Shown here one piece after another: positions 23,291 to 29,935 of a DNA stretch of 39,434 nucleotides; positions within the stretch are counted from its first letter, which is position 1, and every line of letters starts with the position of its first letter. The notes beneath the pieces were generated by a model. It was given only the letters and a program-made list of their open reading frames with translations, was not told the DNA's origin and did not search any database. A program made the position numbers and the translations under genes. The DNA is from Alphaproteobacteria bacterium (GTDB lineage Bacteria > Pseudomonadota > Alphaproteobacteria > UBA9219): positions 1 to 39,434 of the forward strand of contig JAFALY010000021.1 in assembly GCA_019233975.1 (NCBI GenBank), written 5' to 3'.

Positions 23291-23974
23291 ATGTTCCTGA
23301 TCAACCGATGGATAAAAAAACCAGCGCACCCCTACCCCAGACCGCGTATCAATACACGACTTGTGGGGCAACGCGTCATTGTGCGGGCGGTCGAACGCAG
23401 TGACTGGGCAGAATGGCGTGAATTACGTGAAATCAGCCGCGCGTTTTTAACGCCATGGGAACCGCGCTGGCCCAACAACGCCCTCACCCACCATTATTTC
23501 AGCAGCCTGCTGCGCCGTTATGGCCGCGAGTGGCAGCTGGCCAATGGTTATCATTTCCACATTTTCCTGCACCCCACAGATAATGGCAGAAAACACGCGC
23601 GGCATGCCGTGGGGCCATTGGTCGGCGGTGTAACGCTGAGTGCGCTGGAGCGCGGCATTGCGCAAAAGGCGACGCTTGGTTACTGGATGGGACACCCCTA
23701 TGCCGGGCAAGGCCTGATGACCGAGGCCGGGCAACTGGTCATCGATTTCGCGCGTGATGCGTTGCGACTGCACCGGCTGGATGCGTGCTGCCTGCCGCAT
23801 AACGATATCAGTTGTGCGCTGTTACGGCGGTTGGGGTTTGCACAAGAAGGTCTGGCGGCGTCCTATCTCAGGATTGACGGCGCGTGGGAGGATCATCTTT
23901 TGTGGGGGATGACTTTGGATTCTTTGGCACAAAGCGCCGCACATTCCCCGGCGCCTCTGCATCCGGCGGGGTAG
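23291..23974 (+). CDS. RimJ/RimL-type GNAT acetyltransferase
   Basis: The 227-aa protein has the acetyl-CoA-binding signature LGYWMGHPYAGQGLMTEAG, followed by LRLHRLDACCLPHNDISCALLRRLGF and YLRIDGAWEDHLLWGMT, the standard order of RimJ/RimL N-terminal acetyltransferases. The ATG at 23291 is chosen because GAGG lies 6 bases upstream, just behind the thrC stop; a TTG at 23279 inside the thrC end is less likely. The catalytic fold ends around 23905, and the last 20-25 residues are a low-complexity tail. Its 3' end overlaps the convergent SURF1 gene by 107 bases. The target protein is unknown; RimJ acts on ribosomal protein S5 in E. coli. Confidence 0.88.
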   Translation: MFLINRWIKKPAHPYPRPRINTRLVGQRVIVRAVERSDWAEWRELREISRAFLTPWEPRWPNNALTHHYFSSLLRRYGREWQLANGYHFHIFLHPTDNGRKHARHAVGPLVGGVTLSALERGIAQKATLGYWMGHPYAGQGLMTEAGQLVIDFARDALRLHRLDACCLPHNDISCALLRRLGFAQEGLAASYLRIDGAWEDHLLWGMTLDSLAQSAAHSPAPLHPAG

Positions 23975-24686
23975 GCAGTTTTTCCCAGCTTGAAACCAGA
24001 AACACGAACAAAGCGATAAAGGCCAGCCCGTACCATGTCATGGCATAACCGAAATGGTTGTTGGGCAGGTCAAACCTTGTCTGACCGCCGACCGGCAACC
24101 CGCCGGGGTTTGGTGTGTCATCCAGCTCCACAATAAACGGCAAAAAGCCGGGAATGTTGTTTTCACGCGCCATGGCATCCAGATCAACACCGCGCCACAC
24201 ACCGGACAGTTGGTCATGCCCGTGCATCAGCCATGTTTTTTGCGGCAAGCGCAGCGTGCCATGAATGCGCACCATGCCCTGCACCTGTCCCTGCAGACGG
24301 GTCAGCGGGTCCTTGTTCTTGTAAGGAATCCAGCCGCGGTTCACCAGCACCCAGCGGCCATCTTCCATCAGCATCGGCGTCAGGACGTCATAACCACCTT
24401 CGCCCGCCTTACTGATAGCGGTCATATACATTTCATTGTCGTGATTGAACCGGCCGGATGCCGCCACGCGCATATAGTCGATGTCGTTGCCGATGCGCAA
24501 AACCGACAGGTCAGTATAGGGTTGTACAGTACGTTCAGCAATCAACTGCAGCAGATCGGTTTTTTCCTGCAGGCGCTGCATCTGCCATGCGCCCAGAAAG
24601 CCACACAACACGACAAAGAAGATGGTCAGGAGGAGGCGCAGCCAGTGTAAGCTGAACTGCCCGCCCAGAATGCGGAAGGAGATCAT
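23868..24686 (-). CDS. SURF1 family cytochrome oxidase assembly protein
   Basis: The 272-aa protein has two membrane helices (about residues 13-33 and 218-240) around a periplasmic domain, the layout of SURF1/Shy1, which helps insert heme a into subunit I. Family blocks are LGAWQMQRLQEKTDLL, WVLVNRGWIPYKNKDP and the late AMTWYGLAFIALFVFLVSSW. The C-terminal tail of about 35 residues is polar and is encoded antisense to the end of the GNAT gene. It is the last gene of the cox operon, 26 bases after ctaE. Confidence 0.92.
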   Translation of the reverse strand: MISFRILGGQFSLHWLRLLLTIFFVVLCGFLGAWQMQRLQEKTDLLQLIAERTVQPYTDLSVLRIGNDIDYMRVAASGRFNHDNEMYMTAISKAGEGGYDVLTPMLMEDGRWVLVNRGWIPYKNKDPLTRLQGQVQGMVRIHGTLRLPQKTWLMHGHDQLSGVWRGVDLDAMARENNIPGFLPFIVELDDTPNPGGLPVGGQTRFDLPNNHFGYAMTWYGLAFIALFVFLVSSWEKLPTPPDAEAPGNVRRFVPKNPKSSPTKDDPPTRRQS

Positions 24687-24712: not shown

Positions 24713-25570
24713 TCAGGGCGCCGGATTGGGTGACGCGCCGTACCAATAGATGGAGATGAACAGGAACAGCCAAACAACGTCAACGAAGTGCCAGTACCAT
24801 GCCGCCGCTTCAAGACCGAAATGGCTGGTGGCTGTAAAGTGTCCAGCGCGGGCGCGGAAATAGCAGACCGCGAGGAAGATGGTGCCGATGATGACATGCA
24901 GGCCGTGGAAGCCTGTCGCCATAAAGAAGGTCGCGCCATACATGCCGCTTTTGATCGAGAACAGCGCATGATGATATTCAAAGAATTGGCAGACCGAGAA
25001 GCTCATGCCCAACAGAACCGTATAGCCCAACGCGCGAACCATATCCTTCTGGTTGCCTGCCTGGGCCGCATGGTGCGCCCATGTCACTGTCGTACCCGAC
25101 AGCAGCAGGATCAACGTCATGATAAACGGCATGTCGAAAGGATTAAAGGTTTTGATGTTAGCCGGTGGCCAGATGCCGCCCAAAGCCTCAGGCGGATAAA
25201 GCGCCGCGCTGTAATAGGCCCAGAAGAACGCCGCGAAGAACATGACTTCCGATGCGATAAACAACGCCATGCCATAACGCAGGCCGATTTTCACGAGCGG
25301 CGAGTGCGCCTTCTCAACCGAAGATTCACGCACAATGTCGCGCCACCATAAAAACATAACGGTCAGAACAGCAGCGAGGCCGATGAGCGGCCAACAAGCG
25401 CCAAGGTCAACACCCGCGATCGTTCCCTTATGCATGAACAGGACGGTACCACCCGTCAGCAAACCTGCCGCCAACGCGCCGAATAACGGCCACGGCGAAG
25501 GACGCACCAGATGCCAGGGCTGGGGAATACCGCTATCAACATAATGGGCTGTTTTATGTTCTTGGCTCAT
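24713..25570 (-). CDS. ctaE: Cytochrome c oxidase subunit III (CtaE/CoxC)
   Basis: The 285-aa membrane protein has about seven helices. It has HLVRPSPWPLFGALAAGLL at the N-terminus, RYGMALFIASEVMFFAAFFW, TVTWAHHAAQAGN and GFHGLHVIIGTIFL, all hallmark blocks of heme-copper oxidase subunit III. The length is typical for alphaproteobacteria. It stabilises the catalytic core and supports proton uptake. It follows ctaG after a 21-base gap in the cox operon. Confidence 0.96.
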   Translation of the reverse strand: MSQEHKTAHYVDSGIPQPWHLVRPSPWPLFGALAAGLLTGGTVLFMHKGTIAGVDLGACWPLIGLAAVLTVMFLWWRDIVRESSVEKAHSPLVKIGLRYGMALFIASEVMFFAAFFWAYYSAALYPPEALGGIWPPANIKTFNPFDMPFIMTLILLLSGTTVTWAHHAAQAGNQKDMVRALGYTVLLGMSFSVCQFFEYHHALFSIKSGMYGATFFMATGFHGLHVIIGTIFLAVCYFRARAGHFTATSHFGLEAAAWYWHFVDVVWLFLFISIYWYGASPNPAP

Positions 25571-25591: not shown

Positions 25592-26191
25592 TCAGGGGTT
25601 GGGTGTCTTGGGGGCAATGACGGCAGTGATTTGTTTTGCGTCACCCGTTGTAGCCTGCTTTTTCGCTAAAAAGAAGGTGTAAGATAAAGTGATGTGCTGC
25701 ACATCATTGTCATTGGGATCGTCGGCCATCGACGGATCGACGAAGAAACGCACTGGCATTTCCACGCTTTCGCCACCCTTAAGCGTTTGTTGTGTAAAGC
25801 AAAAACACTGGATTTTGTCGAAATAGGACCCGACTTTGTCCGGCTGGACATTATAAGTCGCGTTGCCCGTCACAGTCTGGTTGGATTTATTGTGGGCACG
25901 ATAAGTGATGGTGACAGGTTCGCCGATACGCACAGTAACCGAATGTTGGGTCGGTTCAAAGCTCCAGGGAAGGGATGCGTCAACATTGGCGTCAAAATCA
26001 ACCGTAACGGTACGGTCCAGTATGCGCGCGGGCGCGGACGTTGCCGTTTGTGTCGTGCCGCCAAAGCCTGTCGCCCGGCAGAAAAGCGAATAGAGAGGCG
26101 CTGAGGCATAAGCAAGTCCGCACATCAGCAGTACAAAACCAACCAACGCCACCGCGATACGGTGGTTCCGGCTTTGGGGCATGCGGATCAT
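25592..26191 (-). CDS. ctaG: Cytochrome oxidase copper chaperone CtaG (Cox11)
   Basis: The 199-aa protein has one N-terminal membrane helix (about residues 11-31) and a periplasmic immunoglobulin-like copper-binding domain. The conserved CFCFTQQTL with the two copper cysteines is present, as is PARILDRTVTVDFDANVD near the start of the domain. Cox11 delivers copper to Cu-B of subunit I. Its ATG overlaps the stop of the small upstream ORF as ATGA, indicating translational coupling. Confidence 0.95.
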   Translation of the reverse strand: MIRMPQSRNHRIAVALVGFVLLMCGLAYASAPLYSLFCRATGFGGTTQTATSAPARILDRTVTVDFDANVDASLPWSFEPTQHSVTVRIGEPVTITYRAHNKSNQTVTGNATYNVQPDKVGSYFDKIQCFCFTQQTLKGGESVEMPVRFFVDPSMADDPNDNDVQHITLSYTFFLAKKQATTGDAKQITAVIAPKTPNP

Positions 26192-26337
26192 GGTGTCCCC
26201 GTTACTTTGATTTTTACCATCGTGATGGCATAGATCAAAACAACGACCGCCAGCAAAAATGCAAAGATGGCGCGGTTCCGCGCGGCGCGCTGCTTCTTAA
26301 AGGCTTCGTCGTCAAGGTTTGGCGGTTGTATTGTCAT
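26188..26337 (-). CDS. Small 49-aa membrane protein of the cox operon (CoxF-like)
   Basis: The reading frame encodes MTIQPPNLDDEAFKKQRAAR, then a single hydrophobic helix (FAFLLAVVVLIYAITMVKI, about residues 25-43) and a short tail. It overlaps both neighbours by 4 bases (ATGA with ctaB upstream and with ctaG downstream), which supports real translation. Small one-helix proteins of this type lie between ctaB and ctaG in many alphaproteobacterial cox operons and are thought to help oxidase assembly; the exact role is not established. Sequence similarity was judged by eye only. Confidence 0.8.
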   Translation of the reverse strand: MTIQPPNLDDEAFKKQRAARNRAIFAFLLAVVVLIYAITMVKIKVTGTP

Positions 26338-27287
26338 GACAACCATCCAGCAAAGAAGGGGCGCAGCCAGACATCAACCATCATAAGGCCGAACAATGCC
26401 GCCAGATACAGGATGGAATAGCCAAACATCTGACGTGCGGATTTGTCCGTCGTGTCACGCAATACGCGCACGGCACAGAAAACAAAGCCAAGTCCCAACA
26501 CACTGGCGCCCAACGCATAAAGCAGGCCCGCCGCCTGCATCCAGTACGGGGCCAGCGTCAGCGGCAGCAGAATCAGCGTATAAACCAGCATTTCCCATTT
26601 GGTCCGGCGGGCGCCCTTCACAACCGGCATCATCGGCACACCGGCGCGGGCGTAGTCGTCGCTGCGATAGAGCGCCAGCGCCCAGAAATGCGGCGGCGTC
26701 CAGAAAAAGATAATCATGAATAGAACCAGCGCATGCCAACCGACATGGCCCGTCGCGGCGGCTTCGGCGATCATCGGCGGGAACGCGCCTGCGGCACCAC
26801 CGATAACGATGTTCTGCGGCGTGCGGCGCTTCAGACCCATGGTATAAACCAAAACATAGAATAATGCGGCAAACGCCAGTAATCCGGCCGCCAGCCAACC
26901 GATGGCCAGCGCCATGATAACGGTCGCGGCAAAGATCATGCAGCCGCCAAATTCCAGTGCAACATCGGGATCCATCACGCCGCGGGGAATGGGGCGGCGT
27001 TGCGTACGTGTCATCACAGCGTCAATGTCGCGGTCGTACCACATGTTGATGGCGGCAGCGCCGCCCGCGGACAACGCGATACATAGCAACGTCACAAAGG
27101 ACAGAAGCGGGTGCATATCAACCGGCGCGGTAACAATGCCAACCAGCCCGGAGAAAACCACCAGCGACATCACGCGCGGCTTCAGCAGCTGAATATAATC
27201 ACGCAGGGTAGCCAAGGCGGGCGCGCCATGTCTGTATGCATCGTGTCCGGGTGCCGCATCCGGTATCAGTCCCGATGTGCTGGACAT
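26334..27287 (-). CDS. ctaB: Protoheme IX farnesyltransferase (heme O synthase) CtaB
   Basis: The 317-aa UbiA-superfamily membrane enzyme adds the farnesyl chain to heme b to make heme o, the precursor of heme a. The first Asp motif is NMWYDRDIDAVMTRTQRRPI, and the second lies around RSDDYARAGVPMMPVVKG. About nine helices are predicted. The ATG at 27287 is chosen for the GAGGCGG site 4-5 bases upstream; a TTG seven codons earlier is less likely. It lies between ctaD and the small cox ORF. Confidence 0.95.
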   Translation of the reverse strand: MSSTSGLIPDAAPGHDAYRHGAPALATLRDYIQLLKPRVMSLVVFSGLVGIVTAPVDMHPLLSFVTLLCIALSAGGAAAINMWYDRDIDAVMTRTQRRPIPRGVMDPDVALEFGGCMIFAATVIMALAIGWLAAGLLAFAALFYVLVYTMGLKRRTPQNIVIGGAAGAFPPMIAEAAATGHVGWHALVLFMIIFFWTPPHFWALALYRSDDYARAGVPMMPVVKGARRTKWEMLVYTLILLPLTLAPYWMQAAGLLYALGASVLGLGFVFCAVRVLRDTTDKSARQMFGYSILYLAALFGLMMVDVWLRPFFAGWLS

Positions 27288-27317
27288 AGGATCCGCCTCT
27301 TTCACCAAACCTGCCGC

Positions 27318-28946
<1,629 letters not shown>

Positions 28947-29891
28947 TTATTTCTCGATCGACGCCAGTTGCGGCGCGTTCAAATAAATCCCCGTGGCGGC
29001 GGCGCTCTTCTTGTTTTGCGTCCATGCGGCAAACTTGTCCGGCGAAACGCCTTCAATCACGATCGGCATATAGCCGTGGCCATTGCCGCAGATCATCGAG
29101 CATTGGCCATAGAACAAACCTTCGTGATCCAGCTTGATCCAGAGTTCCGACACATGGCCCGGCACCGACATGCGGTTGACCGCAACCGCCGGCACGTACC
29201 ATGAATGTTCAACATCGCTGCCTGCGACCAGAACGCGCACCATCTTGCCGACCGGCAGGACGACGCGATTGTCGACCTCAAGCAGGCGCAGCGGCTTGTT
29301 CTTGATCAGCCAGCCGGTTTGCGCATCGGCAACCAGCTTGGCCGCATCTTCGTCTGTCACAGTTGATGAATCCCAAATGGCGTGGCTGTCGAAAGAAATG
29401 CCGTTGTTATCAGGGTATTCGTAGCTCCAGTACCATTGGTGGCCTGTTACCTTCAGCGTCAGGTCAACCTGCCCCGAAGCGCGGTCGCTGTAGTACAACA
29501 GCGGCATGGAATACACGAAAAACAGAACAGCCAGAATAAGGGCCGGAACAAGCGTCCAGATCACTTCCAGCTTCACGTTATGGGCAACGGCGCTGGGAAC
29601 AGGATTAGCCTTCTTGTTATAGCGCGCCACAACATAGATAAGCAGCACGAGCACAAAGGCGCTGATAACGGTGATCAGCACCAATAGAACATCGTGGAAT
29701 TTGGCAACATAATCAGCCACCGGCGAGGCGGGGGCCTGCAAACCAATGCCCCAGGCGGCAGGAACGCCATCGGCAAAAGCCGTACCTGAAATACCCAAAA
29801 GAACCAGCATGGTGGCCATCAGCGCCAAACCAAAGCGCGGCAACGCCGCAATGCGCCGCATAAGGGGCGCAAAACCTGAATGATTGTACAC
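28947..29891 (-). CDS. ctaC: Cytochrome c oxidase subunit II (CtaC/CoxB)
   Basis: This 314-aa protein carries the Cu-A electron-entry site. It has a signal sequence, two helices and a periplasmic cupredoxin domain with WYWSYEYPD and the Cu-A motif CSMICGNGHGYM (Cys264, Cys268, His272, Met275). The usual Glu between the cysteines is Met266. A GTG start at 29891 is preferred because GGAG sits 7 bases upstream; a TTG at 29918 and an ATG at 29861 have no such site. It heads the cox operon behind a putative sigma-70 promoter. Confidence 0.94.
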   Translation of the reverse strand: MYNHSGFAPLMRRIAALPRFGLALMATMLVLLGISGTAFADGVPAAWGIGLQAPASPVADYVAKFHDVLLVLITVISAFVLVLLIYVVARYNKKANPVPSAVAHNVKLEVIWTLVPALILAVLFFVYSMPLLYYSDRASGQVDLTLKVTGHQWYWSYEYPDNNGISFDSHAIWDSSTVTDEDAAKLVADAQTGWLIKNKPLRLLEVDNRVVLPVGKMVRVLVAGSDVEHSWYVPAVAVNRMSVPGHVSELWIKLDHEGLFYGQCSMICGNGHGYMPIVIEGVSPDKFAAWTQNKKSAAATGIYLNAPQLASIEK

Positions 29892-29935
29892 AGTTAAACT
29901 CCGGTGATAGTCAGCCAAAAGTCAGGCGATCGCCT

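Follow-up and report, generated by a model that had tools for sequence, protein, structure and literature searches.

The DNA analysed here (39,434 nucleotides, referred to over its whole length as the window) contains a standard A1 cytochrome c oxidase operon, in which coxB is the first gene and is followed by coxA, ctaB, ctaG/cox11, coxC and surf1 (Table 1). The genome to which it belongs comprises 1.88 Mb in 41 contigs and, as read from its open reading frames, also harbours a bc1 complex and a cbb3 operon (a Rieske match and a second heme-copper subunit I), so that the oxidase has an electron-donor chain. Cytochrome bd subunit I had no match in this genome. In the window's family, an aa3 oxidase is missing from most members, and cytochrome bd occurs in 16 of 24.

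Table 1. Genes and Mg-site features of the aa3 oxidase operon, in positions of the window
Feature	Position	Strand	Remarks
coxB, cytochrome c oxidase subunit II	28947..29918	-	TIGR02866 above cut-off, PF00116, PF02790; start TTG, alternative in-frame GTG at 29889-29891
First CuA His, H238	29205-29207	-	
Asn248 (AAC)	29175..29177	-	Place of bovine Lys171
Met250 (ATG)	29169..29171	-	Place of bovine Asp173
CuA loop C273-x3-C277-x3-H281-x2-M284	29067..29102	-	
Met275 (ATG; 266 from GTG)	29094..29096	-	Place of the Mg ligand Glu198 (bovine) / Glu218 (P. denitrificans)
coxA, subunit I	27318..28934	-	TIGR02891 (CtaD/CoxA), 711 bits versus curated cut-off 671
CoxA His389-Asp390	27765..27770	-	Retained; part of the Mg site contributed by subunit I; His389 27768-27770, Asp390 27765-27767
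ctaB, heme o synthase	26334..27308	-	TIGR01473
ctaG/cox11, CuB assembly	25592..26191	-	PF04442, NF003465
coxC, subunit III	24713..25570	-	PF00510
surf1	23868..24686	-	PF02104

Read directly from the coxB open reading frame, the CuA loop is GQCSMICGNGHGYMPI, which corresponds to C273-S-M275-I-C277-G-N-G-H281-G-Y-M284 when numbered from the TTG start. The CuA ligand set is complete (His, Cys, Cys, His and Met together with the backbone carbonyl). Met275, located between the two Cu-ligating Cys, takes the place of Glu198 in the bovine enzyme, Glu254 in Rhodobacter sphaeroides and Glu218 in Paracoccus denitrificans, a placement that is unambiguous when CoxB is aligned with chain B of P. denitrificans 1AR1. 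To turn GAA or GAG into this ATG requires at least two base changes. The original prediction had pointed to this Met (as residue 266, counted from the alternative GTG), to the retention of His389 and Asp390 in subunit I and to an enzyme that otherwise seemed intact, and all of this is borne out: both subunit I residues are found in CoxA, the CuA residues are complete, and the heme/CuB, D-channel and K-channel residues are present, including the equivalents of Glu242, Tyr244, Lys319 and Arg438 in the alignment columns. The prediction had further described a Mg site short of one ligand. The Glu is indeed gone, but three subunit II residues of the Mg site and its water cluster have changed together.

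An AlphaFold model of CoxB alone, that is without subunit I, matches COX II structures (TM 0.87 normalised by bovine 1occ_B) at a mean pLDDT of 77, with values above 90 for most of the periplasmic domain and of 70-79 for blocks at and near the CuA loop; it thus bears on the fold of CoxB and not on the metal site. Compared with Paracoccus CoxB, the CoxB proteins of the window's order carry very roughly 20-30 extra residues (IWDSS...GWLI) before the LLEVDN strand, at 29300-29420 of the window.

The defining features that were tested place the enzyme in the A1 family, from which only its Mg site sets it apart. It shares subunits I-III, the CuA ligands, the heme/CuB and D- and K-channel markers and the assembly genes with the A1 aa3 oxidases of bovine mitochondria, P. 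denitrificans and R. sphaeroides, but lacks the subunit II side of their Mg site (Glu198 to Met, Asp173 to Met, Lys171 to Asn). The bo3 and aa3-600 quinol oxidases have an A-type fold without CuA and without a CuA loop bearing Glu198. The window's enzyme, in contrast, has the full CuA site and falls well short of both the CyoA cut-off (45.5 versus 266 bits) and the QoxA cut-off (51 versus 241 bits), and assignment as a quinol oxidase was rejected. Glu198 in subunit II is a usual A1 feature that is absent here. We did not take it as defining, because it is missing in about one-sixth of the motif-bearing alphaproteobacterial genomes, and the "conserved Glu" of the original prediction is accordingly not universal in A1 oxidases.

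In the bovine oxidase, the carboxylate of Glu198 is a ligand of Mg2+, and the backbone carbonyl of the same residue goes to CuA (PMC10194837, PMC10598403); this carbonyl is what the residue at the Glu198 position contributes as CuA ligand (PMC6696091, PMC10598403). The water cluster at the Mg site involves H368, D369, R438 and R439 of subunit I and D173, S197 and E198 of subunit II (PMC12901375). Mainly from bovine structures, Mg2+ and Glu198 have been proposed to store pumped protons and to time their release (PMC10194837, PMC10598403), and according to a review the mature A1 oxidase contains tightly bound Mg (PMC9145763). Thermus thermophilus ba3, which has N377, N150 and Q151 for D369, S197 and E198, lacks Mg2+ at this place, and its water cluster persists though the ion is absent (PMC12901375).

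The frequency of such replacements was determined in 385 genomes drawn evenly from the Alphaproteobacteria, of which 291 carry the CuA motif. At the Glu198 position, 48 of these 291 have a non-Glu residue (called when the codon does not start with G), namely 42 Gln, 4 Lys, 1 Asn and 1 Met. Glu198 prevails without being universal, and Met is very rare at this position: the single Met among the 385 genomes is the window's own, which excludes Met as a common variant. We also looked for a larger number of ordinary CoxB proteins that combine Met with a normal Mg site, an outcome that the original prediction had named as speaking against it, and found Met to be nearly unique. Leu at this position occurs as well (CTLICG in Nitrospirillum). 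In the phylum outside the class, the non-Glu pattern was found in 0 of 213 genomes, where the denominator comprises all scanned genomes and not motif carriers.

Where Glu is missing, the rest of the Mg site is usually altered too. This is evident from 204 distinct CoxB sequences (186 with their own CoxA), which divide into 127 Glu types and 77 non-Glu types. Asp173 is kept in all 127 Glu types and Lys171 in 123 of them; the non-Glu types have lost Asp173 in 61 cases (16 of 77 keep it) and Lys171 in 66 (11 of 77 keep it). On the subunit I side, the other acid of the Mg site, Asp369, is retained as Asp or Glu in all of the 111 scored Glu types, and 46 of the 72 scored non-Glu types carry Asn at this position. 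A first data set of 194 sequences, which contained six exceptions keeping Asp173 instead of the 16 found after Gln types from 6-7 Mb genomes and Lys and Asn types keeping Asp173 had been added, overstated the coupling. Two rankings refer to this first set only: by mutual information, D369 shows the strongest association with Glu loss of all CoxI columns, and among 497 variable columns of both subunits (Glu198 left out) K171, D173, S197 and L199 rank 1-4 and D369 ranks eighth.

Because shared ancestry inflates raw counts, independent pairs were counted on a tree built without the tested Mg-site columns, which shows at least 16 changes at the Glu198 position and yields 10 independent pairs on supported branches. 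Across these 10 pairs, Lys171 changes together with Glu198 in 7.8 cases and against it in 0.3 (p ~0.008), with corresponding values of 7.1 versus 0 for Asp173 (p ~0.016) and 6.5 versus 0 for Ser197 (p ~0.03). For Asp369 the values are 5.4 versus 0.5 (median p ~0.125), and its association on this larger tree is only suggestive. The neighbouring Arg178 is not associated (1.2 versus 1.4). A tree from CoxI only gives the same directions with six supported pairs, which are too few for significance. The package of changes is not obligatory, since some non-Glu enzymes keep Asp173 (the 16 of 77) or Asp369.

The Met version itself is not confined to the window. CSMICG is present in three further genomes, two of the same family and one (L032) an uncultured "Rhodospirillaceae" MAG from a separate collection, and all three share with the window the sequence N-R-M upstream of this motif, so that Asn-x-Met stands in place of bovine Lys171-x-Asp173 in all four Met types. 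CSMICG could thus be confirmed as a clade trait, as the original prediction had considered: the four species have both CSMICG and N-x-M, and their clade (SH-aLRT 100) is nested in an order with Glu, Gln, Leu and Met at the Glu198 position. Among the four, CoxB is 55-67% identical and CoxI 80-86%, and the subunit I His-Asp and both Arg are kept throughout. Screening all alignable CoxI and CoxII columns for residues that are identical in the four and present in less than 4% of the others (~180 relatives) leaves five: K171 to N, D173 to M, E198 to M and two Thr in CoxA. At three more positions the four differ from the others, although not uniformly. As three of the five clade-specific residues lie at the Mg site, the Met clade is set apart largely by this site.

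The other non-Glu enzymes provide points of comparison. The commonest class (32 enzymes, Q-x-Y, fully scored) combines Asn-Gln in subunit II with His-Asn in subunit I. These Gln types (CNQICG with HN, for example in Elstera litoralis and Roseococcus) resemble the window in that Glu198, Asp173 and Lys171 are all replaced, but they carry Gln, Tyr and Gln instead of Met, Met and Asn and, in addition, Asn for Asp369 in subunit I. T. thermophilus ba3 is, like the window's enzyme, a CuA oxidase with a non-Glu residue at the position of the CuA carbonyl, and is without Mg2+ in its water cluster (PMC12901375); it differs as a B-family enzyme with Gln in subunit II, Asn in subunit I and Glu126 at the Asp173 position, where the window has Met, Asp and Met, respectively. 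The ba3 pattern (S197N and E198Q in subunit II, D369N in subunit I) is therefore not that of the window, which has S, M and D, but fits the class with CNQICG and HN. The recurrence, in A1 enzymes, of the residues of an oxidase whose structure is known to be Mg-free provides the strongest indirect evidence for Mg loss, and this evidence concerns the Gln class. The Leu types (CTLICG), which come from the named strains Nitrospirillum amazonense, N. viridazoti and N. iridis, share with the window a hydrophobic residue for Glu198 and the retained subunit I His-Asp; they differ from it by Leu in place of Glu198, His at Asp173 and Gln at Lys171. Judged by their residues, the Met and Leu classes, which retain the subunit I Asp, and the Lys class, which retains Asp or Glu there, seem to have responded to the same loss in different ways. 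In the Lys class, the side chain of the Lys may stand in for the positive charge of Mg2+, and the acid kept in subunit I perhaps pairs with this new Lys.

Given the residues that are kept and those that are replaced, we consider it likely that the window encodes a functional, proton-pumping A1 (mitochondria-like) aa3 oxidase that works without Mg2+, and that changes in subunit II have taken apart the site of this redox-inactive ion between subunits I and II. CuA, with its complete ligands, would assemble and accept electrons, and it should tolerate Met because residue 275 gives only its backbone carbonyl, independent of the side chain. Because the side chains that secure the ion and its water network in other aa3 oxidases, those of Glu198 and the adjacent Asp173 and Lys171, have become Met, Met and Asn, Mg2+ is probably unbound in the Met clade or bound weakly, at most by His389-Asp390 and water. 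Met275, Met250 and Asn248 would fill the space and pack against subunit I, so that neutral and thioether packing may hold the interface. By analogy to ba3, protons could exit by way of the water cluster, the pair of conserved Arg and the heme propionates without a Mg carboxylate, and preservation of pumping is assumed from the intact D-channel residues. The connection that the original prediction drew between the substitution and the Mg site with its proton-exit region appears to be right.

Among the alternatives, the one that fares best, although we regard it as rather unlikely, is that the Met clade merely swapped the subunit II ligand and that a weakened Mg2+ site is still present on His389-Asp390 and extra waters. 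As His-Asp and both Arg are kept in four of four Met types, while most Gln types have replaced the Asp by Asn, Mg or Mn could still bind there, more weakly and with water supplying more of the ligands; however, Asp173 and Lys171 are replaced as well, which a mere ligand swap does not need, and from general chemistry Met does not bind Mg2+. A site for a soft metal, in which Cu(I) or a different thiophilic metal is held beside CuA by Met275, Met250 and His389, would account for the occurrence of two Met and one His where other oxidases have their Mg site and for the invariance of both Met in the clade. We nevertheless deem it improbable, and packing is the simpler reading because in the related Leu types this space is occupied without any thioether. 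Still less credible is a decaying oxidase, in which relaxed selection in a lineage losing its aa3 enzyme would render the substitutions meaningless. Most genomes of the family indeed lack this oxidase, but the genes are full-length, the operon is intact, all catalytic residues are kept, and four Met types with such similar CoxI proteins carry the same three substitutions. Finally, a sequencing or assembly error at the Met codon was rejected as very unlikely, because at least two base changes would be required and the same CSMICG and N-R-M are found in the three other genomes.

Beyond the window, the replacements suggest that the Met clade, with its putatively Mg-free oxidase, is one of several parallel losses of the Mg site in Alphaproteobacteria, the commonest route being Gln in subunit II with Asn in subunit I. 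With somewhat more reserve, we lean towards the view that evolution can dispense with the A1 Mg2+ site and that its residues have been lost together, as a linked set, about a dozen times in this class by different chemical routes, namely neutral Gln/Asn as in ba3, Lys combined with a subunit I that retains Asp or Glu, and the hydrophobic residues Met or Leu, among which the window's clade would be the rarest. A lone Met would be a minor curiosity; it is the coupled and repeated loss that makes the case worth following, as the Mg site has apparently been removed on many occasions from A1 enzymes whose catalytic residues are all retained. We found no description of a natural loss of the Mg site in CuA-containing A1 oxidases in a literature search that covered little subscription literature, so that a prior mention is possible. 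Such enzymes, some of them in named strains (Nitrospirillum amazonense, Elstera litoralis), represent natural experiments on whether pumping, proton exit, the CuA potential or assembly depends on the ion. If they pump one proton per electron, models in which pumping requires the Mg/Glu198 cluster would not be generally valid. In addition, K171, D173, S197 and E198 of subunit II together with D369 of subunit I offer a fingerprint by which Mg-free oxidases may be recognised in genomes.

Several further variants of the site were observed. All Lys types inspected (L255, L256, L151, L176, L177 and L129, with CSKLCG, CSKICG, CNKICG and CAKICG) have an acid at CoxI position 369, which is Glu in two of them (LHETYY). 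The CSQLCG class (L250-L254 and L258-L263, from genomes G453, G457, G471, G517, G560 and G660) keeps K-x-D and HD; here Glu198 has changed to Gln alone, and the class is possibly a paralogous oxidase. Two Glu-type enzymes (L241 and L019) display another alteration of the same site, with Gln replacing the Mg-site His368 in CoxA (QD and QE). The bovine Arg439 interacts with Glu198 through water; its counterpart is His or Gln in the Gln-type CoxA sequences L165-L168, L188, L010, L011 and L158 and in no scored Glu type.
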